64,000 nucleotides of DNA from Aureimonas pseudogalii. Its GTDB lineage: Bacteria; Pseudomonadota; Alphaproteobacteria; Rhizobiales; Rhizobiaceae. Shown piece by piece: positions 3,431 through 14,389 of this stretch (the first letter of the stretch is position 1; every line of letters starts with the position of its first letter). The translations under genes and the position numbers were made by a program. Where the stretch lies: positions 248,001 to 312,000 of the forward strand of contig NZ_JACIEK010000001.1 of NCBI RefSeq assembly GCF_014196835.1, read 5' to 3'. The notes under the pieces are model-generated. The model was not told the DNA's origin and made no database searches. It worked only from the letters and a program-made list of their open reading frames with translations.

Positions 3431-5899
3431 TCAGGCCGGCTCGCCGGCCGCGACCGCGACCTGCGGCGAAGAGACCGCGTAGGCGCCGGAGGCGAAGCCG
3501 TTGCGCACCTCCACGAGCATCTTGGCGAGATCGCTGGCCGGGCGCGGGCGCGAGAACAGGAAGCCCTGCATGTCGGTGCAGCCTTCGGCTTCGAGCATTG
3601 CCAGCTGCTCGGCGGTCTCGACGCCCTCGGCCACCACGGTCATGCCCATCGCGGCGCCGAGCCCCTGCACCGCGCGCACGATGGCGATGTTCTCGGAGCG
3701 GCTCATGTCGCGCACGAAGGACTGGTCGATCTTGATCCGGTCGAACGGGAAGCGGCTGAGATAGCCGAGCGAGGAGTAGCCGGTGCCGAAATCGTCCATC
3801 GACACGAGAAGGCCGAGGCGACGAAGCTGAACGAGCGTTTCGAGGATCGCGTCGGCCTCGTCGAGGAACAGCGATTCCGTCACCTCCAGCTGCAGGCGGC
3901 GGGGGTCGATGCCCGACGTTTCGATCGACTTGCGAATGTCGCCGACGAGATCGGCGCTCTTGAACTGGGCCGGTGACAGGTTGATCGACAGCGACAGGTT
4001 GGAGGGCCAGCGGGCGGCCTGCCGGCAAGCGTCGCGCATCACGAAGCGACCGAGACGCACGATCAGCCCGTTCGCCTCCATCACCGGGATGAACAGGCCC
4101 GGACTGACCTGCCCGCGCGTCGGGGAGTTCCAGCGCACGAGCGCCTCGAACCCGGAGATCGCGCGCTGCGGCAGGTTCACGATCGGCTGGAAATAGAGCT
4201 CGAACTCGTCGCGATCGAGCGCATCGCGAAGATCGGAGACCAGGCGCTGGCTCTCCTCCATCTCCTCGCGGATGCCGGGGGCGTAGAGCCGCAACTTCGA
4301 GCCGGTGTCGGCCTTGGCCTGATACAGCGCCAGTTCGCAGTCCTGCATCACCGCATGGGCGTCGCGGCCGGCCGCGCGGTCGGCCTTCGCCAGCGGCACC
4401 ATGCCGATCGCCACGCGCACGCCGAGCGGACGGCCCGCCACCGTCACCGGGCGCTTCTGCAGGTCCTCGGCGATCATCCGGCACAGGTGATGCCCGGCAT
4501 CCGGCTGCCCCTTCAGCCGCTGCACGATGCCGAACTCGTCACCGTCTAGGCGGGCCACGAGGTCTCCGGGCCGCACCAGCGCGGCCAGCCGCTCGCCGAC
4601 CTGGCGCAGCAGGTCGTCGCCCGCCATGTGGCCGAGCGTCGTGTTGACGCTGTTGAAGTCGGCGATGTCGATGGCGATCACGGCGATCTCGTCGTCGACG
4701 AGATCCTGGGCCATCATGCCGTTCAGGTGCTCGTAGAACATGCTGCGGTTCGAGAGGCCGGTGAGCGGATCCTGGCGTGAGAGACGCTCCAGCTCGCCCC
4801 GCGCCGCGACCTGTTCGGTGATGTCGTCGAAGATCAGGATGGTGCCGCGCTCGCCGCCGCTGTCGTGCCGCCGCACCTGGAGATGGCGGCCCGATCGCAG
4901 CTGGTGGACCTGCATCTCGGGATCGTCGCTCGCGAGAATCGCGGCGAGATCGGCGTGGCGACGCACCGTTTCCGCCCGGCTGCCCGCCGCGATGCCCGGG
5001 AACATGCGAACGAAGGCATCGTTCGCGGCGAGCACGGTGAGATCGTCGCCGACGAGGCAGAAGGCCTGGGTCATGTTGTCGAGCGCGTTCTCGAAGCGCT
5101 GCCGCTGACTGTGCAGTTCGGATTCGAGCCGGCGATGGGTTTCCTTGCGCAGCCGCGCCGCCACGTTGTCGCGGTCGCTGATCGAGGCTTCCACGAAGCG
5201 GATCGCATTGGCGAGATCGTCCATCGGATCGACGTTCGGGCGCACCGGCGGATCGGCGCTGGGGTCGCCGACGCGCGTCAGGGCGGCGGCGGCATTGCGA
5301 ATGGAGCGGCCGATGCTGCGCCCCAGCGCCATGAAGACGAGGAGGCCGACGAGGCTGCCGATGCCCAGACCCGTCCACACGAGCTGGTCGACCGATTGAC
5401 CGTGATCGACCGAGCGCTGGCGCAGCGCCATGATGTCGGCGCGAAGCGCGTTGGCCGCCGTGTCGAACTCGTCGACGATCGTGGAAAGCTCGCGTCGCAC
5501 GAGCCGGTGCGTCACGTCGCCCTCGGCGACGCGCAGACGGTTGAGCGCGTAGGCGAGTTCCGAGAGGCGACGCGAGGACGGACCTTCGGGCACCTCCAGC
5601 GCGCTCTGGCGAAGCTCGCCGAGGATCTCGGACAGTCCGGCCAGGAGCTCCGCGCCGTCGCTCGCGCCGATCGGTCCGACCACCCCGGCCGGAGTGCTCT
5701 TGGCGAGGAACCGGTTCTCCAGATCGGTCGCCTTCGCCGAGGCGACAGTCAGCCGGTCGAGCGGATCGACCCCGTTCTGGAACACGGCCTCGACGGCCGA
5801 ACGAACGTCCTCGTTGCGCACATGCACCATCACGGCGAAGGTCGTCGCCACGATGGCCAGCAGCACGGCGCTGCAGAGCAGCTTCAGTTTTATCGACAT
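3431..5899 (-). CDS. membrane-bound PAS-GGDEF-EAL cyclic-di-GMP protein
   Basis: 822-residue sensor predicted to turn over cyclic di-GMP. It has an N-terminal membrane helix (about residues 3-25), a periplasmic stretch, a second helix (LVWTGLGIGSLVGLLVFMAL), a HAMP/coiled-coil linker, a PAS domain (FENALDNMTQAFCLV), then GGDEF and EAL domains. The EAL side looks intact: EAL at about 585-587, INLSPAQF, EVTESLF, DDFGTGYSSL and VAEGVET. The GGDEF signature reads DGDEF (about 452-456), so the cyclase half may be degenerate and phosphodiesterase is the likelier output. It sits between the RutR-like gene and preA but shows no link to pyrimidine chemistry. An upstream ATG at 5911 is possible; 5899 gives a cleaner membrane anchor. 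Confidence 0.88.
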   Translation of the reverse strand: MSIKLKLLCSAVLLAIVATTFAVMVHVRNEDVRSAVEAVFQNGVDPLDRLTVASAKATDLENRFLAKSTPAGVVGPIGASDGAELLAGLSEILGELRQSALEVPEGPSSRRLSELAYALNRLRVAEGDVTHRLVRRELSTIVDEFDTAANALRADIMALRQRSVDHGQSVDQLVWTGLGIGSLVGLLVFMALGRSIGRSIRNAAAALTRVGDPSADPPVRPNVDPMDDLANAIRFVEASISDRDNVAARLRKETHRRLESELHSQRQRFENALDNMTQAFCLVGDDLTVLAANDAFVRMFPGIAAGSRAETVRRHADLAAILASDDPEMQVHQLRSGRHLQVRRHDSGGERGTILIFDDITEQVAARGELERLSRQDPLTGLSNRSMFYEHLNGMMAQDLVDDEIAVIAIDIADFNSVNTTLGHMAGDDLLRQVGERLAALVRPGDLVARLDGDEFGIVQRLKGQPDAGHHLCRMIAEDLQKRPVTVAGRPLGVRVAIGMVPLAKADRAAGRDAHAVMQDCELALYQAKADTGSKLRLYAPGIREEMEESQRLVSDLRDALDRDEFELYFQPIVNLPQRAISGFEALVRWNSPTRGQVSPGLFIPVMEANGLIVRLGRFVMRDACRQAARWPSNLSLSINLSPAQFKSADLVGDIRKSIETSGIDPRRLQLEVTESLFLDEADAILETLVQLRRLGLLVSMDDFGTGYSSLGYLSRFPFDRIKIDQSFVRDMSRSENIAIVRAVQGLGAAMGMTVVAEGVETAEQLAMLEAEGCTDMQGFLFSRPRPASDLAKMLVEVRNGFASGAYAVSSPQVAVAAGEPA

Positions 5900-6040: not shown

Positions 6041-7384
6041 TTATTCCGCGGCGTCAGGCAGCAGCATCGGCTCCGGCGCGAACTGCATGGTTTCGCGGCG
6101 TTGCGGATTGTTCGGATGCACAGTCCAGTTGGAATAGTCGGCCGGGATCGACTTGCCGGTTCGCGCATCGACACCCTGGACTCGTTCCATGGTGATGCAA
6201 CTCTCGACGGGACAGACGTTGACGCAAAGGTTGCAGCCGACGCACTCCTCGTCGATCACCTCGAACTTGCGGCGCCCGTCGACCATCGCGGTGATCGCCT
6301 GGTGCGAGGTGTCCTCGCAGGCGATGTGGCACCGCCCGCAGGAAATGCAGAGATCCTGGTCGATCCGCGCCTTCGTGACGTAGGACAGGTTGAGATACTG
6401 CCAGTCGGTGACGTTCGGCACGGCTCGGCCGCGAAAATCCTCGATCGTCGCGTAGCCCTTCTCGTCCATCCAGTCCGAGAGGCCGGACGCCATTTCCTTC
6501 ACCACCTTGAAGCCATAGGTCATCGCCGCCGTGCAGACCTGCACCGTGCCGCAGCCGAGCGCGATGAACTCGGCGGCGTCGCGCCAGGTCGTGATGCCGC
6601 CGATGCCCGACATCGGCAGCCCCCGGGTTTCCCGGTCCCGCGCGATGTCGGCCACCATGTTGAGCGCGATCGGCTTCACCGCCGGGCCGCAATAGCCGCC
6701 ATGGCTGCCCTTGCCGTCGATGGTCGGGGTCGGCGCGAAATTGTCGAGGTCGATCGAGACGATCGAGGAGATCGTGTTGATGAGCGACACGGCATCCGCC
6801 CCGCCGCGGCGCGCGGCACGCGCGGGAAAGCGGATGTCGGTGATGTTGGGCGTCAGCTTGACGATGACCGGCAGGCGCGAGTGCTGCTTGCACCAGCGCG
6901 CCACCATCTCGATATACTCGGGCACCTGCCCCACCGCCGAGCCCATGCCGCGCTCGCTCATGCCGTGCGGGCAGCCGAAGTTCAGCTCGACGCCGTCGGC
7001 GCCGGTCTGTTCCACGACCTTCAGGATGTCCTGCCAGCTCTTCTCTTCGCAGGGCACCATCAGCGAGACGATCATCGCCCGGTCCGGCCAGTTGCGCTTG
7101 ACCCGCGCGATCTCCTCCAGATTGACGTCGAGCGAGCGGTCGGTGATCAGCTCGATGTTGTTGAGGCCGAGGAGGCGCCGGTCCGGCCCGTGGATGGCGC
7201 CGTAGCGCGGGCCGTTGACGTTGACCACGGGGTCGCCCTCGCCGAGCGTCTTCCAGACGACGCCGCCCCAGCCCTGCTCGAAGGCACGCTGGACGTTGTA
7301 CTCCTTGTCGGTCGGCGGCGCGGAAGCCAGCCAGAACGGGTTGGGCGAGGAGATCCCGAGAAAGTTCGTCGTGAGGTCGGCCAT
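6041..7384 (-). CDS. preA: NAD-dependent dihydropyrimidine dehydrogenase subunit PreA
   Basis: 447-residue FMN-dependent dihydropyrimidine dehydrogenase subunit that reduces uracil and thymine to the dihydro forms with electrons from PreT. A dihydroorotate-dehydrogenase-like barrel fills the first 330 residues, with the active-site loop in ELNFGCPHGMSERGMGSAVG and the flavin phosphate site in SGIGGITTW. Two ferredoxin-type 4Fe-4S motifs follow (CISCGRCHIAC and CVGCNLCVNVCP). It starts 14 nt after preT ends, so the two are co-transcribed as in other bacteria. Confidence 0.95.
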   Translation of the reverse strand: MADLTTNFLGISSPNPFWLASAPPTDKEYNVQRAFEQGWGGVVWKTLGEGDPVVNVNGPRYGAIHGPDRRLLGLNNIELITDRSLDVNLEEIARVKRNWPDRAMIVSLMVPCEEKSWQDILKVVEQTGADGVELNFGCPHGMSERGMGSAVGQVPEYIEMVARWCKQHSRLPVIVKLTPNITDIRFPARAARRGGADAVSLINTISSIVSIDLDNFAPTPTIDGKGSHGGYCGPAVKPIALNMVADIARDRETRGLPMSGIGGITTWRDAAEFIALGCGTVQVCTAAMTYGFKVVKEMASGLSDWMDEKGYATIEDFRGRAVPNVTDWQYLNLSYVTKARIDQDLCISCGRCHIACEDTSHQAITAMVDGRRKFEVIDEECVGCNLCVNVCPVESCITMERVQGVDARTGKSIPADYSNWTVHPNNPQRRETMQFAPEPMLLPDAAE

Positions 7385-7398
7385 GTCCGTCGTCTCCC

Positions 7399-8826
7399 CT
7401 ATCGAACCCAGGCCGAGGCGGTCTGAGCCGCGTCCGTCGCCGCTTCGCCGATGCGAGCGAGAAGGCCGGGCCGGGCGCTCAGCGCCTCGTGAATGCTCGT
7501 CGCGGCGATCTTGCCGTCCTCCACCGCCACCACCGTGAGGTCGGATCCGTCGGCGATGCAGTCGCCGCCGGCCCAGACGCCTCCTAGGCTCGTGCGGCGC
7601 TCGGCATCGACGCGGATGCGGCCCTTTTCCATCGCGATGTCGGCGCCCTCCCTCGTCATGCCGTCTGGGAGGAAGGTCTGGCCGATCGCCTTGAACACCT
7701 GATCGGCCTCGATCGTCACGGTCTCGCCGGTCAGTTCGAGCCGCCCGTCGCGCGATCGCGTGCGCTCCAGCTCGATGCCGCTGACATGGCCGTTCTCGGC
7801 GAGAATGCGCTTCGGCGTGAGGTTGCAGCGGATGTGGACGCCGCGGGTCTGCGCGATCTCCTGCTCGTAGCGCGAGGCGTTCATCGCCTCGCGGCCGCGC
7901 CGGTAGACGAGCGTCACCTCCTCGGCGCCGAGCGCCTTGGCCTGCACCGCCGCATCCACCGCCGTCATGCCGCCGCCGACGACGACGACGCGCCGCCCGA
8001 CCGGCAGGTCCGAGAGATCGCGGGTCTGGCGCAGGTCCGCGATCCAGGCGACCGCATCGTGCGAGCCGCCGCTGGCTTCCCCGTCCGCGCCCAGCGCGTT
8101 GACGCCGGAGAGGCCGAGACCGAGAAACACCGCGTCGTAGTCGGCCCGCAGGTCTTCGAGATGAATGTCGCGGCCGAGCGCCTTACCGGTCTCGACTGTG
8201 ATGCCGCCGATCGACAGCACGAAATCCACCTCGGCCTGCGCGAAGCCGTTCGTCGCCTTGTAGGCGGCGATGCCGTATTCGTTGAGGCCGCCCGCCTTCG
8301 GCCGCGCATCGAAGAGCGTCACGTCGTGGCCGAGCATCGCAAGGCGATGAGCACAGGAGAGGCCCGCCGGTCCTGCGCCGACCACGGCGACCGTCTTGCC
8401 GGTGGACGCGGCGCGCTCGAACGGATGGTCGCCGCGCTCGATCAGCCGGTCGGTCGCGAAACGCTGCAGCAGCCCGATCTTGACCGGCTTGCCCTCGGCG
8501 GTCTCGCGCACGCAGACCTCCTCGCACAAGGTCTCGGTGGGGCAGACGCGGGCGCACATGCCGCCGAGAATGTTGGCCGAAAGGATGGTCTTGGCGGCGC
8601 CGATCGGGTTGCCGGCCTGGATCTCGCGAATGAACAGCGGAATGTCGATCGAGGTCGGGCAGGCCTGCATGCAGGGCGCGTCGTAGCAGAAGTAGCAGCG
8701 GTCGGACTCGACCAGCGCCTCGTGCACCTTGAGCGGGGGATGGATGTCCGAGAAGCCCCTTGCCAGCGCCTCCGGCTCCAGCCGTGCCGGCGCGACGTCG
8801 CCGCGAATGGGTCGAAACTCGTTCAT
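7399..8826 (-). CDS. preT: NAD(P)H-dependent dihydropyrimidine dehydrogenase subunit PreT
   Basis: 475-residue GltD-like flavoprotein that passes electrons from NAD(P)H to PreA. The N-terminal iron-sulfur domain carries CYFCYDAPCMQACPT and CARVCPTETLCEEVC. The FAD site is VVGAGPAGLSCAHRLAMLGHDV and the NAD site VVVGGGMTAVDAAVQAKALG, followed by GGDCIADGSDLTVVAVEDGKIAA. The ATG at 8826 is preceded by a G-rich stretch. An in-frame ATG at 8868 would add 14 residues. It is the first gene of the preT-preA unit, and a RutR-like palindrome lies about 170 nt upstream. Confidence 0.94.
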   Translation of the reverse strand: MNEFRPIRGDVAPARLEPEALARGFSDIHPPLKVHEALVESDRCYFCYDAPCMQACPTSIDIPLFIREIQAGNPIGAAKTILSANILGGMCARVCPTETLCEEVCVRETAEGKPVKIGLLQRFATDRLIERGDHPFERAASTGKTVAVVGAGPAGLSCAHRLAMLGHDVTLFDARPKAGGLNEYGIAAYKATNGFAQAEVDFVLSIGGITVETGKALGRDIHLEDLRADYDAVFLGLGLSGVNALGADGEASGGSHDAVAWIADLRQTRDLSDLPVGRRVVVVGGGMTAVDAAVQAKALGAEEVTLVYRRGREAMNASRYEQEIAQTRGVHIRCNLTPKRILAENGHVSGIELERTRSRDGRLELTGETVTIEADQVFKAIGQTFLPDGMTREGADIAMEKGRIRVDAERRTSLGGVWAGGDCIADGSDLTVVAVEDGKIAATSIHEALSARPGLLARIGEAATDAAQTASAWVR

Positions 8827-8994
8827 CGCAAGGCCCCCGGATCGTTCGGGCCGCGTGCCTGCCGACATCTGCCGGACACGCCTCGCCTACCCCTTTGTTG
8901 CAGCCGTCCGGCCCGGCTGCGCCGGCGCGTCGCGCCCGCAGTTTTGAACCGTTCCAGACGAGAATGATCCGAGATTTTCGGGCCGTCAAATATT

Positions 8995-9099: not shown

Positions 9100-9127
9100 T
9101 TGCAATTGGTTTCCGATGCAGTATGCT
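9100..9127 (+). promoter_or_regulatory. putative sigma-70-type promoter for the 9133 gene
   Basis: TTGCAA (9100-9105), a 16-nt spacer, then TATGCT (9122-9127). Transcription would begin close to the ATG at 9133, which would make a nearly leaderless message; no Shine-Dalgarno sequence is visible there. The palindrome at 9126-9140 overlaps the -10 element and start site, where a repressor would block initiation. Confidence 0.35.
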
Positions 9128-9140
9128 TTGTGATGCAAAG
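9126..9140. promoter_or_regulatory. operator-like palindrome A, centred on a start codon
   Basis: CTTTGTGATGCAAAG: CTTTG/CAAAG arms around TGATG, with the ATG at 9133 in its second half. A near-identical perfect palindrome lies at 10137-10151, positioned the same way over the start codon of the cis-prenyltransferase gene. The winged-helix gene between them (9747) is the obvious candidate to bind both. Confidence 0.55.
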
Positions 9141-9747
9141 TCGGGATGGTGTGATGAGAGACGTTCAAAAGGCGCTGGCCGAGATCGAGGCGATTCGCAG
9201 CGGCATGGCGGCGGGCACGGTGTTCCGCGGGTTCGGCCCGACGACGCTGGCCGCGACCGGCGGCCTGGCGCTCGTCGCCGCCGGCCTTCAGACCCTTTAT
9301 CCGCCGACCGTTCTCGTCTTCTTCGTCCAGTGGATCGCTGTCGCCCTCGTCTCGGTGGCTGCCGTCGGGGTCGAGGTGGTGCTGCGCTCGCGCCGCCAGC
9401 ATGGCGGCCTCGCCGACGCGATGATTCATCAGGCGATCCAGCAGTTCCTGCCTGCCGGCATGGCCGGTGCGGGGTTCGCCGCCGTGGTCGCCCGCTGCGC
9501 GCCGGACACGGCCTGGATGCTGCCGGGCACCTGGGCAGTCCTCGTCGGGCTCGGCCTGTTCGCGGCCCAGCGCTCGTTGCCGCGCGCCGCCGTGCTTGTC
9601 GCCGCCTGGTACTTCGTCGCCGGCTTCGCCGCGTTGCTTCTCTCGGCCGGCGTCTCGACGCCCTCGCCCTTCGCGATGGGCGTGCCCTTCGCGGTGGGCC
9701 AGGGACTGCTCGCCATCGTGTTCCTCCGATCGCCGGAGGTTCGCTGA
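9133..9747 (+). CDS. multi-span inner-membrane protein, unknown function, paired with a winged-helix regulator
   Basis: 204 residues. A short soluble N-terminus (MRDVQKALAEIEAIRSG, possibly amphipathic) precedes about six hydrophobic segments, roughly TLAATGGLALVAAGLQTLY, TVLVFFVQWIAVALVSVAAVG, GMAGAGFAAVVA, TWAVLVGLGLFAA, AVLVAAWYFVAGFAALLL and PFAVGQGLLAIVFL. I do not recognise the family. The stop codon overlaps the ATG of the next gene (TGATG at 9745-9749), so the two are translationally coupled, and a membrane modulator or sensor for that regulator is plausible. I chose the ATG at 9133 because its context matches the other palindrome-centred start. The ATG at 9154 would give 197 residues. 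Confidence 0.7.
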   Translation: MQSRDGVMRDVQKALAEIEAIRSGMAAGTVFRGFGPTTLAATGGLALVAAGLQTLYPPTVLVFFVQWIAVALVSVAAVGVEVVLRSRRQHGGLADAMIHQAIQQFLPAGMAGAGFAAVVARCAPDTAWMLPGTWAVLVGLGLFAAQRSLPRAAVLVAAWYFVAGFAALLLSAGVSTPSPFAMGVPFAVGQGLLAIVFLRSPEVR

Positions 9748-10115
9748 TGGTGGGCGCGGGTTCCACCTCCCCCTTCGCCTACGAGGGGCTCGACCGCGTC
9801 ATCCATGAAAAGGCGCGTCTCGGCGTCATGACCTCGCTCGCCGGCCAGCCGCGCGGCCTCGGCTTCGCCGACCTCAAGCGCCTCTGCGGCCTCACGGACG
9901 GCAATCTCAGCCGGCACCTGCAGGTTCTCGAAGAGGCCGGGTTCGTGCGCATCGAAAAGGCCTTCGCCGGCAAGCGCCCGGTCACGACCTGCTTTCTCAC
10001 CGAGGCCGGGCGCGAGAGCTTCCTCGACTATCTCGCCACCCTCGAACAGGTGCTCAAGGACGCCGTGGCGGCGTCGAAGGCACCCTTGCGCGATCCCAAG
10101 CCCTCCCCCGCCTGA
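9747..10115 (+). CDS. winged-helix transcriptional regulator (MarR/ArsR-like)
   Basis: 122-residue single-domain winged helix-turn-helix protein. The core reads [25 protein letters not shown], then [23 protein letters not shown] (recognition helix), then the wing [17 protein letters not shown]. This is the small winged-helix type often annotated as MarR-like or transcriptional regulator. A perfect GGAGGT lies 6 nt before the ATG, and the gene overlaps the upstream membrane-protein stop. The prenyltransferase gene begins 28 nt downstream. Palindromes at 9126 and 10137 flank the gene and suggest autoregulation plus control of the prenyl genes. The ligand is unknown. Confidence 0.82.
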
Positions 10116-10136
10116 CACCCTTTTTTTGACAGGAAA

Positions 10137-10151
10137 CTTTGCAATGCAAAG
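10137..10151. promoter_or_regulatory. operator-like palindrome B, over the cis-prenyltransferase start codon
   Basis: CTTTGCAATGCAAAG is a perfect 7+1+7 inverted repeat whose second half contains the ATG at 10144. It differs from palindrome A (9126-9140) at two bases. It lies just after the Shine-Dalgarno-like AGGAAA at 10131-10136. In RNA a 6-bp stem with an AAU loop could also form over the start codon, so translational control cannot be excluded. A DNA operator for the adjacent winged-helix protein is the simpler reading. Confidence 0.6.
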
Positions 10152-10845
10152 CACTCTGCGTCCAAAGACTCACCTCGCCGTCATCATGGACGGAAACGGC
10201 CGTTGGGCGACGAACCGCGGCCTGCCGCGCAGCCGCGGGCACGAGGCCGGCGCCCGCGCCGTCCGTCCCGTGGTCGAAGCCGCAACGGAGGCCGGCATCG
10301 GCACGCTGACGCTCTACGCCTTCTCCTCCGACAACTGGCGGCGTCCGGGCCCTGAGGTCGCCGTGCTCATGGGCCTGCTGCACCGCTTCCTGGCGAAGGA
10401 GATCGAGGCCCTCGCCGACTCCGGCGTGCGCCTCAACGTGATCGGTCGGCGCGATCGCCTGCCGTCCGGGCTGGCCGCGCGCATCGCGGCGGCCGAAGCT
10501 ATGAGCGCCGGCGCCGCGCGACTGCATCTGCGCATCGCCGTCGACTATTCCTCGCGCGACGCGCTCCTCGAGGCGGCCCGCCGCGCCGAAGCCTCGGTGA
10601 CGCGCGAAACCTTCGGCGCCCTCGTCGCGGGGGCCGGCGTGCCCGACGTCGATCTCCTCGTGCGCACCGGCGGCGAGCGCCGCCTCAGCGATTTCCTGCT
10701 CTGGGAATGCGCCTACGCGGAACTGCGCTTCGTCGATCGCCTGTGGCCCGATTTCGGACGCGACGACCTGACGGAGGCGCTCGCCGACCTTCGAAGCCGC
10801 CAGCGCCGCTTCGGCGGCCTGCCCGCCGCCGCCGAAGCGGCGTGA
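10144..10845 (+). CDS. cis-prenyltransferase (UppS/Z-polyprenyl diphosphate synthase family), divergent paralogue
   Basis: 233-residue Z-isoprenyl diphosphate synthase that adds isopentenyl units in cis to an allylic diphosphate. Clear family motifs: [22 protein letters not shown] (catalytic Asp at about 16), [20 protein letters not shown], and the C-terminal [23 protein letters not shown]...LWPDF. Two hallmarks differ from housekeeping UppS: NYGGR is DYSSR (about 134-138) and RTSGE is RTGGE (about 174-178). Housekeeping uppS normally lies with frr, cdsA and dxr. Here the gene heads a run with a LinD-like protein and a prenol-kinase type DgkA, so I take it as a specialised paralogue, perhaps making a shorter product. 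AGGAAA lies 7 nt before the ATG. Confidence 0.88.
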
Positions 10846-10853
10846 ATTCGCCG

Positions 10854-12845
10854 ATGCCCGCGCGAACGTCTCTTCCGACGAACGAGCCCCCGATGACGGA
10901 ACCGAGCCTGCTCCCGGCCGCCAAGCGCGGCAGCGTCGGCCGAAGCCGCTTCGGCCCGCCCGGTCCGGTCGCGCAGCGACAGGTCGGCCGCAGCTTGCTA
11001 GGTCTCGCCGCCCTCGTCGCCATCGGGGCGGCACTGACGCTCGTCGCCGAGCCTGCGCCGCTGCGCGCGCTGGGGTTCAGCCTCGCGCTGCCCGGATCGG
11101 GGTTCGTCCTCTGCCATGGATCGGCGGGGGCGCCGGAGGTCGCGCCTTGGCTCGGCTTCGCCGCGACGTGGCTGATGCTGCCGGGTGCCGTCTTCCTGTG
11201 GTTCGCGACGGGCAACGCCGCGGCGCCCCCGGCCGTCTGGCTTCTCGCGGCGCTGGGGTCGGCCGTCCACGCCGCCGGTCGCGGCTGTCTCGGGTCCGCT
11301 CCCGAGGTCGCCGGCTTTGCGCTGCTGCCGCTTGCGGGCCTCCTCGCCGGAGCGGGACTTGTGCTTCTGCGGCGGTCCAGCCCGTCGCTCGACGCCGCAC
11401 CGGCGCGGCCGGCACCCGAGACGAGCATCGCGACGCCTCCCACGCCCCGAGCGGAAGATCCCGGCGAACTCGGCCCGCAGGATCTCGCCCGCCTGCGCTT
11501 CCTGCTCGACCGGGCGCTGCAGCCGCTCGACGCGTTCGAGGGGTTCGAGCGGCTCGATCCGTTCCAGTCGGGCGCGCTGCGCTACCAGCTCCAGTTCCCC
11601 GGCTTCGCGCTGGCGATGGTGCAGCGCTCCAAGCTTCCGGCGCTCCAGGCCTATCTCACGCAGGCGCAGGTCAACCTCGTGGAGAAGACGCGCCGGCACG
11701 AGGTCTGGCGATACTGGGCGCTGGAGAACCTCTGGGGCCGTGGGCGTCTCGATCCCGACCCGCTCGCCGTCGACAACGTCATGTATTCCGGCTTCTGCGC
11801 CGCGCAGATCGCGCTGTTCCAGGCCGCCTCCGGCGATTACCGCTTCTCACGTCCCGGCGCCTTCACGCTGCACCATCCCTCCGGCCGATGCTTCGAGGCG
11901 GACTTTTCCTCGCTGGTCGCCGGCATTTCGGAGCAGCATCGGCGCTCGCGGTTCGGGCTCGTCGCCTGCGAGCCCAACTGGCTCTTCCCCGTGTGCAACA
12001 GCATCTCCTATCTCGCCATCGCCGCCCACGAGGCTCAGTTCGGCGGCACCAGCTGGCAGGACATGGCCGAGCGCCAGCGCGCCCTCCTCGAAACCGAGTT
12101 CACCGACCGGCACGGGCGTTTCGTCACCTGCCGCTCCAGCCGCACCGGGCTCGCGATGCCGCCGATCGGCGGCGCGCTGACGCGGCTGCTGCCGTGCTTC
12201 TTCCTCGATGCGGCGCTGCCCGATCTGGCGCAGGCGCATTGGCAGCGCCTCCGCCCCGCCCTGCTGACGTCGGTGGAGGGATCGTCGCGGGCGAAGGTGC
12301 GGGCGTTCTGGCCGATCGACGTCGGCAACTATCGCCTCACGCGCATCGCCGGTCTCGCGGGCGCGGCGGCGGCGGCCACCGAGATGGGCGACCGCGAGGT
12401 CGCGAGCGCCATGATCGAGGCGCTCGACCGGCTGCATCCGCTCGTCACGACCGGGGGAATCGGGCACCGGCCGAACGCCTCGATCTGGGCGCACGCCTTC
12501 GAACTGATCGCGCAGAGCGGACGCGCGGGCAGCCTGCGCGATCTCGTCCGCCACCCCTCGCCGCCGCTCGGCGAGGCGCCGACCCCGCACGTGAGCGACT
12601 GCCCCTATCCTCAAGCTCTGGTCACCCGCGCGGTCTGGCGGGACGGGCGGCTCGAACTCGTGCTGGTTCCCGGCTCCGGCGGCGGCCGGATCACCCTCGG
12701 CCTCGCCGGCCTGAAACCGAACAGTCGATACCGCAGGATCGAGGACGGAGCGCCCGTCGCCAGCGGCCGGGATGGAACCGCCGCGCTGTCGCTCGACCTG
12801 CGCGGCCGCACCGTCGTGACGATGATCGAAACGGAGACTAACTGA
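10854..12845 (+). CDS. membrane-anchored linalool dehydratase/isomerase (LinD)-like protein
   Basis: About 663 residues. The first 45 are proline/arginine-rich. Four or five membrane helices follow (about 47-65, 72-88, 99-118, 123-138 and 152-168), then a large soluble domain (about 200-550) and a beta-rich tail. The soluble domain resembles linalool dehydratase/isomerase: DNVMYSG (Asp307-Gly313) and CEPNWLFPVCNSISYL, whose two cysteines (372 and 381) have the same nine-residue spacing as LinD Cys171/Cys180. LinD interconverts myrcene, linalool and geraniol. The positions I would align with LinD His129 and Tyr45 look like Phe and Gln, so the substrate or chemistry probably differs. The start is uncertain: GTG 10842 (overlapping the upstream stop), ATG 10854 and ATG 10893 all lack a good ribosome site. 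The stop overlaps the next ATG. Confidence 0.75.
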   Translation: MPARTSLPTNEPPMTEPSLLPAAKRGSVGRSRFGPPGPVAQRQVGRSLLGLAALVAIGAALTLVAEPAPLRALGFSLALPGSGFVLCHGSAGAPEVAPWLGFAATWLMLPGAVFLWFATGNAAAPPAVWLLAALGSAVHAAGRGCLGSAPEVAGFALLPLAGLLAGAGLVLLRRSSPSLDAAPARPAPETSIATPPTPRAEDPGELGPQDLARLRFLLDRALQPLDAFEGFERLDPFQSGALRYQLQFPGFALAMVQRSKLPALQAYLTQAQVNLVEKTRRHEVWRYWALENLWGRGRLDPDPLAVDNVMYSGFCAAQIALFQAASGDYRFSRPGAFTLHHPSGRCFEADFSSLVAGISEQHRRSRFGLVACEPNWLFPVCNSISYLAIAAHEAQFGGTSWQDMAERQRALLETEFTDRHGRFVTCRSSRTGLAMPPIGGALTRLLPCFFLDAALPDLAQAHWQRLRPALLTSVEGSSRAKVRAFWPIDVGNYRLTRIAGLAGAAAAATEMGDREVASAMIEALDRLHPLVTTGGIGHRPNASIWAHAFELIAQSGRAGSLRDLVRHPSPPLGEAPTPHVSDCPYPQALVTRAVWRDGRLELVLVPGSGGGRITLGLAGLKPNSRYRRIEDGAPVASGRDGTAALSLDLRGRTVVTMIETETN

Positions 12846-12973
12846 TGGCCTGCTGCATTCTCGCCGGACTGGCGTTCGGACTGATCCTCGCGGCTGCACG
12901 AAAACTCGCCGCGCTGACCGGACGCGGAACCGATCCACTGGAATGGCGCACCGGTGCGGGAGACGCGCCATGA
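12845..12973 (+). CDS. 42-residue single-span membrane peptide
   Basis: Begins MACCILAGLAFGLILAAARK, a hydrophobic helix with two adjacent cysteines near the N-terminus, followed by a basic and polar tail. The ATG overlaps the stop of the LinD-like gene (TGATG at 12843-12847), and its own stop overlaps the DgkA start (ATGA at 12970-12973). Coupling at both ends argues that it is translated. The family is unknown; a small subunit or anchor for the neighbouring membrane enzymes is a guess. Confidence 0.6.
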   Translation: MACCILAGLAFGLILAAARKLAALTGRGTDPLEWRTGAGDAP

Positions 12974-13368
12974 CCGCCTCGGCCCATTCCGCCGCGGCGG
13001 GGCGCGGGCTTCGCGCAATTCTGCGGCGTCGGATCGCCAGCTTCGGTCATGCGGGCGTGGGGATCGCCCATATGGTGACGACGCAGCCCCATGCCCGCAT
13101 CCATCTCGCGGCCGTGGCCGTGGTCGTCGGCGCCGGATGCTGGCTCGCCATCCCGATCGAGGACTGGATCGCCGTGACGCTCGCCTGCGCCCTCGTGCTG
13201 GCCGCCGAAGCGATCAACACCGCCTTCGAACATCTTTGCGACGTGGTCAGCCCGCAATGGAGCGAGGACGTGCGCCGCGCCAAGGACGTGGCAGCCGGCG
13301 CCGTGCTGCTCGCCGCCGTCGCTGCGGCGATCGTCGGAGGTCTGATCGTCGCGAAGGCGCTGAGCTGA
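12970..13368 (+). CDS. DgkA-family kinase, undecaprenol-kinase (UdpK) type
   Basis: 132-residue integral membrane kinase. Family motifs: FGHAGVGIAHMV, ARIHLAAVAVVV, EAINTAFEHLCD and RRAKDVAAGAVLL, with three hydrophobic helices. This spacing is that of the Gram-positive DgkA/UdpK branch, which phosphorylates undecaprenol rather than diacylglycerol; the branch assignment is from memory of the motifs. As the last gene of a run starting with a cis-prenyltransferase, it probably phosphorylates a prenol. ATGA overlap with the preceding small gene. The 70-nt gap to convergent glyQ shows no obvious terminator. Confidence 0.8.
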   Translation: MTASAHSAAAGRGLRAILRRRIASFGHAGVGIAHMVTTQPHARIHLAAVAVVVGAGCWLAIPIEDWIAVTLACALVLAAEAINTAFEHLCDVVSPQWSEDVRRAKDVAAGAVLLAAVAAAIVGGLIVAKALS

Positions 13369-13438: not shown

Positions 13439-14389
13439 TCAGGCCGCGCGGGCCTGCATGCCGGCGCCGCCGGCCTCCGTCTGGAGAAAGGCCTCGCCGC
13501 AGGCCTTGGCGAGCGTACGCACCCGCAGGATGTAGCTCTGGCGCTCGGTGACGGAGATCACGCCGCGCGCATCGAGAAGATTGAACGCGTGGCTGGCCTT
13601 GATCGCCTGGTCGTAGGCCGGCAGCACGCAGCGATGCAGCGCCTGCGCCTCGGTCGGCGCGCCCGCCGCGAGGATCGCCGCGCATTCCCGCTCGGCATCG
13701 TCGAAATGCTGCAGCAACATCTTCGTATCGGCGATCTCGAAGTTGAAGCGCGAATATTCCCGCTCGGCCTGCAGGAAGACGTCGCCATAGGTGACCTTCT
13801 CCTCGCCCTCGCGGCCGTTGAAGTTGAGGTCGTAGACGTTGTCGACGTTCTGGACGTACATGGCCAGCCGCTCGAGCCCGTAGGTGAGTTCCCCCGCCAC
13901 CGGCGCGCATTCGATGCCGCAGACCTGCTGGAAATAGGTGAACTGCGAGACTTCCATGCCGTCGCACCAGCACTCCCAGCCGAGGCCCCAGGCGCCGAGC
14001 GTCGGCGATTCCCAGTCGTCCTCGACGAAGCGGATGTCGTGTAGCGCCATGTCGATGCCGATCGCCTTCAGCGAGCCGAGATAGAGCTCCTGCAGGTTGG
14101 GCGGGTTGGGCTTCAGGATCACCTGATACTGGTAGTAGTGCTGCAGCCGGTTGGGGTTCTCGCCGTAGCGCCCGTCCTTGGGCCGACGCGAGGGCTGCAC
14201 GTAGGCGGCGTTCCAGGGTTTGGGGCCGAGCGCGCGCAGCGTCGTCGCGGGGTGGAACGTGCCGGCGCCCACCTCCATGTCGTAGGGCTGCAGCACCACG
14301 CAGCCATAATCGGCCCAGTAGCGGTGCAGCGCGAGGATGAGGCCCTGGAACGAGCGTTCGGGCCGCATGTGCGGGGCGAGATCGGACAT
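13439..14389 (-). CDS. glyQ: glycyl-tRNA synthetase alpha subunit
   Basis: 316-residue catalytic subunit of the heterotetrameric bacterial glycyl-tRNA synthetase. Nearly the whole family signature is readable: [15 protein letters not shown] (motif-2-like region), [31 protein letters not shown] and [18 protein letters not shown], with the usual AATP-binding fold implied. The beta-subunit gene glyS, normally directly downstream, is not there. The next gene in that direction is the convergent kinase ending at 13368, and no glyS occurs anywhere in the window. Confidence 0.96.

Follow-up and report, generated by a model that had tools for sequence, protein, structure and literature searches.

A LinD-family protein joined to a cis-prenyltransferase and a DgkA-type kinase in Aureimonas pseudogalii: a possible repressor-controlled cis-prenol pathway

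Six genes and two modules

Between positions 9154 and 13368 of the window, as we call the whole stretch of 64,000 nucleotides (nt) analysed here (Aureimonas pseudogalii, contig NZ_JACIEK010000001.1, positions 248,001 to 312,000), six genes follow one another on the + strand. They encode a membrane protein (MP), a winged-helix regulator (HTH), a second cis-prenyltransferase (CPT), a protein of the LinD family (LDI), a small peptide (MICRO) and a lipid kinase of the DgkA family (DGK). Judged by gene order across genomes, two modules, MP-HTH-CPT and LDI-MICRO-DGK, have come together in the locus. A sequence-only reading had described six open reading frames (ORFs), with abutting or overlapping junctions in the run from CPT to DGK, and families assigned from motifs. 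All ORFs are present, the sequence confirms the junctions, and the family calls were right, with HTH_34, Prenyltransf, Ldi and DAGK_prokar far over the Pfam cut-offs.

MP (9154-9747, 197 amino acids, aa) has six hydrophobic segments and seven helices in its predicted model (predicted local distance difference test, pLDDT, 80.4). It matched no family over the cut-off in Pfam or NCBIfam, and a Foldseek search with the model gave no fold match in the PDB at E <= 0.001. HTH (9747-10115, 122 aa) belongs to HTH_34 (PF13601, 2.6e-22) and overlaps MP by 1 nt at 9747. It is followed by a gap of 28 nt, the only junction without an overlap of 1-4 nt, and by CPT of the UppS family (10144-10845, 233 aa; Prenyltransf, 5.5e-70). 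CPT shares a 4-nt GTGA (10842-10845) with LDI (10842-12845, 667 aa), which consists of a transmembrane (TM) part, a LinD-type (alpha,alpha)6 barrel with Cys376 and Cys385, and a C-terminal beta domain. After a 1-nt overlap at 12845 comes MICRO (12845-12973, 42 aa), with an MxCC start, one TM segment and a WR motif, and a 4-nt ATGA (12970-12973) joins it to DGK (12970-13368, 132 aa), which has Ala at both glycerolipid-contact serine positions. The GTG at 10842 is most likely the start of LDI, because the gene of Aureimonas sp. AU20 is annotated with GTG and the same 4-nt overlap, while A. jatrophae has ATG there. For MP the most likely start is 9154, since 10 aligned homologues can begin at that position.

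Counting the host, 6 genomes from 3 families carry these parts in this order; the neighbourhood, whose conservation in relatives the sequence-only reading had named as a check, is thus kept in 5 further genomes. Six separate ORFs are found in the host, A. jatrophae (G009) and plasmid pAU20b of Aureimonas sp. AU20 (G012). MICRO is fused to DGK in G188, from another family of the same class, and in G596 and G481, from another family of the same order. An oddity of the genus Aureimonas was rejected on the grounds of this common order in other families. Carriers of PF18566, the family of LDI, are rare (host included, 3/21 genomes of the genus, 7/385 of the class and 9/397 of the order), and a profile of the LDI subfamily matched 3/378 genomes of the phylum, with 903 bits for the host and 82 and 21 bits for the others.

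The two modules also occur apart. LDI-MICRO-DGK stands without an adjacent MP-HTH-CPT in L007, L008 (genome G032), L009 and G715. MP-HTH-CPT stands without an adjacent LDI in G401, G323, G271 and G304, none of them among the class genomes with PF18566. MP was found in 30/337 genomes of the order; 6 of these had been read before, G545 was left out (25 residues match at a contig end) and 23 were fetched. MP, HTH and CPT are consecutive in all 23 fetched loci, and there was no match to LDI or DGK in the 3.8-8.0 kb read at each. Because each module stands without the other in several genomes, neither seems to require the other, and a single obligate six-gene pathway was rejected. A search of DGK and MP against plasmids (low-complexity filter on) matched only AU20. 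There the locus lies on a 436-kb plasmid, whereas the contigs that carry it measure 1.38 Mb in the host and 0.94 Mb in A. jatrophae, which suggests mobility.

A palindrome at both modules

Two operator-like palindromes were first spotted by eye, CTTTGTGATGCAAAG (9126-9140, no strand assigned) just 5' of MP and CTTTGCAATGCAAAG (10137-10151, no strand assigned), which spans the start codon of CPT and extends into the gap behind HTH. When the window was scanned allowing up to 2 mismatches, MP and CPT were the only places found (3 matches over the two strands; chance mean 0.30). The 15-bp pattern CTTTGYNNYRYAAAG, on either strand, is exact at the starts of MP and CPT in 10/10 of the MP-HTH-CPT genomes first compared. 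It was then searched without mismatch in 14 genomes, the pattern read backwards serving as control. Both sites were recovered in 10/10 genomes, and in 6 of these (host G000, G009, G012, G323, G271, G304) they were the only exact ones; the 5.0-Mb host genome thus has just the sites at MP and CPT. With up to 1 mismatch, 22 of the 23 further MP-HTH-CPT loci have the palindrome at MP and 19 have it at CPT. L164, whose sequence begins 57 bp before MP, lacks it at MP and also at CPT, L151 and L159 lack it at CPT, and in L163 it lies about 100 bp 5' of the matched part.

In G715 the modules are unlinked. MP-HTH-CPT lies on contig 7, with an exact palindrome at CPT and one with 1 mismatch at MP, and contig 2 carries LDI-MICRO-DGK together with two palindromes, 74 bp before and just inside the likely LDI start. 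The palindrome at both unlinked modules argues that they serve one function, and one regulon seems to join them. The LDI operons of G032, G801 and G802 contain no palindrome. Additional single sites were found in G596 (2), G481 (3), G401, G032 and G801, those of G032 and G801 off the contigs carrying LDI; a further one in G188 (C113:155816) was set aside, being inside an ORF of 754 aa.

HTH contains a 13-residue stretch invariant across 10 loci and is a candidate to bind the palindromes. By its position, palindrome 1 coincides with the transcription start that one would expect upstream of MP, as a repressor site would; pairs resembling -35 and -10 elements before MP were judged by eye only. 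At L009, from the Kiloniellales, a divergent gene (4898-5332) that by reading resembles an ArsR-type regulator precedes LDI. The genome of this locus (G802) gave no palindrome match, and the same module is perhaps under different control there.

The enzymes and the small membrane peptide

CPT matches PF01255, carries the active-site motifs of UppS and passes the NCBIfam profile NF011412/PRK14839 (352 bits, cut-off 334). The motif MDGNGRWA is kept and RTGGEHRISNFLLW is nearly kept as a 14-residue variant. Three features set CPT apart from UppS. Behind the motif NYGGR of E. coli, which is DYSSR in CPT, it is shorter by some 10 residues; it has its own regulator; and in the tree the 11 CPTs linked to MP and HTH group in a single clade (100/98) that excludes 24 other UppS, although the bootstrap is not fully settled. 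The host has another UppS at C6:78465, and a second, ordinary UppS is present in 7/7 LDI-DGK genomes having MP (236-267 bits versus 313-359 bits for the special CPT). Above the NCBIfam cut-off the special CPT was found in 6/385 genomes of the class, preceded by MP and HTH in 6/6 loci. The CPT tree, in which several forks are weak, splits the loci linked to LDI, which suggests that LDI and CPT became linked or unlinked on more than one occasion.

Other genes follow CPT at several loci. A gene for a BchE-like B12-binding radical SAM protein is present at 8 of them (L051, L106, L147 in part, L149, L150, L152, L153 and L164), and the proteins of L051 and L106 pass the NCBIfam cut-off for BchE. PufL/M are present in G323 (L051). 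In G715 (L106; genome 90% complete) no PufL/M match was found; for this reason its BchE-like protein may not serve bacteriochlorophyll, and it may act on the prenyl product. L053 has a different B12-binding radical SAM protein downstream of CPT (10429-12354), and DUF4153 membrane proteins lie there in L052 (5506-6993) and L163 (2536-4041; 31% identity).

The sequence-only reading depended on the similarity of LDI to LinD, and this similarity proved significant by profile, sequence and structure. LDI matches Ldi (PF18566) with 7.7e-71 and 239.6 bits (cut-off 26.1), and phmmer aligns residues 232-547 to LinD (7.3e-10). With the predicted model (pLDDT 81.6, predicted template modelling score, pTM, 0.82; built from 10 sequences), the first 27 structure matches are LinD chains (best E 8.6e-11, TM-score 0.79-0.80 to the target, 17-19% identity), and the next two are far weaker (5.5e-4 and 7.4e-4). 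Cys376 and Cys385 align to Cys170 and Cys179 of LinD, the catalytic pair described in an excerpt of PMC6600392, and are invariant in 12/12 LDIs. Fold, cysteine pair and a nearly invariant position corresponding to Tyr65 are thus common to LDI and LinD of Castellaniella defragrans (5g1u, 7ad2). Asp38 and Tyr44 of LinD fall before the aligned range, and the invariant Asp223 of LDI is only a candidate.

LinD is described as periplasmic, with a capping Cys48-Cys101 disulfide (PMC6600392, excerpt), whereas LDI has Arg at the position of Cys101, which would fit a cytosolic enzyme. The TM part of LDI and its C-terminal beta domain both lie outside the region that the LinD chains span. In the LDI model, four long helices (43-68, 101-123, 128-147 and 154-177) precede the barrel and the beta domain (583-663) follows it; a hydropathy count gave 3 strong segments in the LDI of the window and 4 in those of L008, L009 and L074. 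Lis of Thauera linaloolentis 47Lol (PMC4791888, excerpt) has the same plan, with four predicted N-terminal TM helices and a LinD-type cytosolic domain, and a similar length (644 versus 667 aa), a likeness of overall plan rather than of compared residues. The excerpt describes its gene as isolated from neighbours and catabolic, whereas LDI lies in an apparent operon with CPT and a kinase. The 10 DGK-adjacent LDIs form one clade (98/99), apart from the proteins of Novosphingobium, a Rhodococcus plasmid and three shorter LDIs. The Rhodococcus opacus plasmid protein (L081, 7116-9320; 734 aa, annotated as hypothetical) is encoded among alcohol and aldehyde dehydrogenases and a P450, and is perhaps a catabolic linalool isomerase.

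DGK matches DAGK_prokar (PF01219) with 3.1e-29; NCBIfam returned nothing for LDI, MICRO or DGK. In the numbering of E. coli DgkA, counted by hand from a fragment, DGK keeps the positions of Glu69, Asn72, Glu76, Lys94 and Asp95 in 10/10 loci, and Ser17 and Ser98 are replaced by Ala in 10/10. Both serines are lipid contacts in the ternary structure (PMC4703834, excerpt). The second DgkA of the host has Ser at both positions and is nearer to E. coli DgkA (3ze3; 50 bits versus 26.7 for DGK). Because both glycerolipid-contact serines are Ala, we infer a substrate other than a glycerolipid, namely a prenol, and the loss of Ser17 and Ser98 would then be a mark of UdpK. DGK is likely of the undecaprenol-kinase type. 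Like the Gram-positive undecaprenol kinase (DgkA/UdpK), which we take to be similar in sequence, it is a small kinase of the DgkA family beside prenyl metabolism; it differs in coming from a Gram-negative organism and in having an extra TM segment with an MxCC start, separate or fused.

MICRO matched no Pfam family over the cut-off. Homologues are present in 10/10 LDI-DGK loci, as separate ORFs in 6 and as the in-frame N-terminus of DGK in 4 (L054, L073, L074, L075). Between the three Aureimonas, synonymous differences (pS 0.56-0.69) exceed nonsynonymous ones (pN 0.17-0.32), and together with the fusions this led us to reject a chance ORF. As fusions to DGK occur, MICRO is probably a part of the kinase. 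The gene table of PLSDB, incomplete by design, has no gene at its position in AU20. On plasmid pSA1 of Novosphingobium resinovorum (L080), a 130-aa protein with a similar MSCC-TM start (9732-10121) follows LDI, and no DGK match was found in 17.7 kb; the CC-TM element may occur without the kinase.

By reading, the locus is flanked on the opposite strand by unrelated house genes, PreA/PreT-like dihydropyrimidine dehydrogenase genes (6041-8868) on one side and glyQ (13439-14389) on the other.

A possible route for cis-prenols

While the linkage of the parts has good support, the chemistry and its direction are what we infer. Our tentative proposal, to which we give somewhat less than an even chance, is a pathway for cis-prenols under the control of a repressor: LDI would interconvert allylic prenols and DGK would form a prenyl phosphate. 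HTH would bind the palindromes and hold the operon off, and MP would sense a membrane or lipid cue. CPT would make a cis-polyprenyl diphosphate besides the housekeeping UppS, from which a phosphatase from outside the locus would free the prenol. LDI, a membrane-anchored enzyme whose catalytic domain would lie in the reducing cytosol, would shift the allylic hydroxyl of the prenol from C1 to C3 or back, as modelled on the linalool isomerase of Thauera, so that neutral or tertiary prenols regain the primary form. DGK, with MICRO as an extra TM helix, would then phosphorylate the primary prenol with ATP to a prenyl phosphate carrier. By topology reading, the catalytic parts of CPT, LDI and DGK probably all face the cytosol, and the three enzymes could share a membrane substrate for that reason. 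In its narrower form the proposal appears rather doubtful: a LinD-family isomerase in the membrane would interconvert the primary and tertiary allylic forms of cis-polyprenols, a prenol kinase dedicated to them and extended by a TM helix would phosphorylate them, and one repressor would control it all. The shared pathway put forward in the sequence-only reading stands in part: the shared palindrome, including that of the unlinked modules in G715, the MICRO-DGK fusions and the loss of the DGK serines speak for it, but the genes are not one fixed six-gene unit.

Several points weigh against the proposal. In total 27 MP-HTH-CPT loci (4 + 23) lack an adjacent LDI, and MP and the special CPT are present in 7/10 LDI-DGK genomes, G032, G801 and G802 having neither. 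The co-occurrence counts come partly from kin, as the 7 genomes include three Aureimonas and two of one genus (G481 and G596). The unlinked regulon was seen in one genome only, G715. The backwards control gave 0 matches in the host and 5 others and 1-7 matches in 8/14 genomes (maximum 7, in G801), and single stray palindrome matches therefore mean little. A sigma-70 scan found no promoter above the threshold at the locus. In 7/10 DGKs, Gln replaces Glu28, which serves as a metal ligand in E. coli. His128, among the active-site residues of LinD (PMC12455561, excerpt), is Phe (Phe318) in 10/10 DGK-linked LDIs, and on this account the activity of LDI may differ from that of LinD. There is no phosphatase in the locus.

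The strongest rival is a supply of carrier lipid under envelope stress, in which the extra UppS and an undecaprenol kinase, under a membrane sensor, would raise undecaprenyl phosphate whenever carrier runs short and LDI would be minor or unrelated. CPT is indeed a UppS-family paralogue, and undecaprenol kinase feeds the carrier pool in B. subtilis (PMC5723303, excerpt). In bacitracin (bcr) operons, a membrane-bound sensor is found together with a gene described as a putative undecaprenol kinase, but its product BcrD is, in the same excerpt (PMC3435297), also 60-75% identical to undecaprenol pyrophosphate phosphatases. A carrier boost leaves LDI unexplained, which sits with DGK in 10/10 loci of its clade, as well as the genomes with LDI-DGK but without the special CPT, and we consider it unlikely.

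Those same genomes would suit a salvage of short plant terpenols, LDI making primary from tertiary alcohols such as linalool and nerolidol and DGK phosphorylating them for prenyl metabolism, all the more as the characterised relatives work on linalool and geraniol (PMC4791888, excerpt). The locus has, however, no second kinase giving the diphosphate; alcohol and aldehyde dehydrogenases, which do surround the Rhodococcus LDI, are absent from it, and the palindrome is common to the LDI module and CPT, which makes salvage distinctly unlikely. Alternatively it might be that dehydration by LDI turns the prenol from the CPT product into an acyclic cis-polyprenyl diene hydrocarbon, with DGK returning any surplus of the prenol. 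LinD dehydrates linalool and takes aliphatic alpha-methyl allyl alcohols, with yields that rise to C13 and fall at C16 (PMC12455561, excerpt). Yet the four-TM relative Lis differs from Ldi in dehydratase activity (PMC4791888, abstract) and His128 of LinD is not conserved in LDI; we regard diene synthesis as quite improbable.

Returning to the repressor-controlled cis-prenol pathway, the enzyme families are known, and there is a real chance that the pathway is new. Searches limited to open-licence PMC papers did not find, among the titles and openings of abstracts listed, the combination of linalool dehydratase, cis-prenyltransferase and diacylglycerol kinase, nor this way of handling membrane carrier lipids described, which does not prove its absence. 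Ldi and Lis, two characterised enzymes of the LinD family, serve to degrade monoterpenes; here, gene order, a common palindrome and co-occurrence tie a distinct LinD subfamily to a cis-prenyltransferase and a prenol-type kinase. With six genes and a predicted 15-bp operator, the proposal is directly testable. If it is true, some Alphaproteobacteria would hold a regulated pool of free polyprenol and, in the narrower and more doubtful form, a Gram-negative reservoir of neutral, parked carrier lipid.

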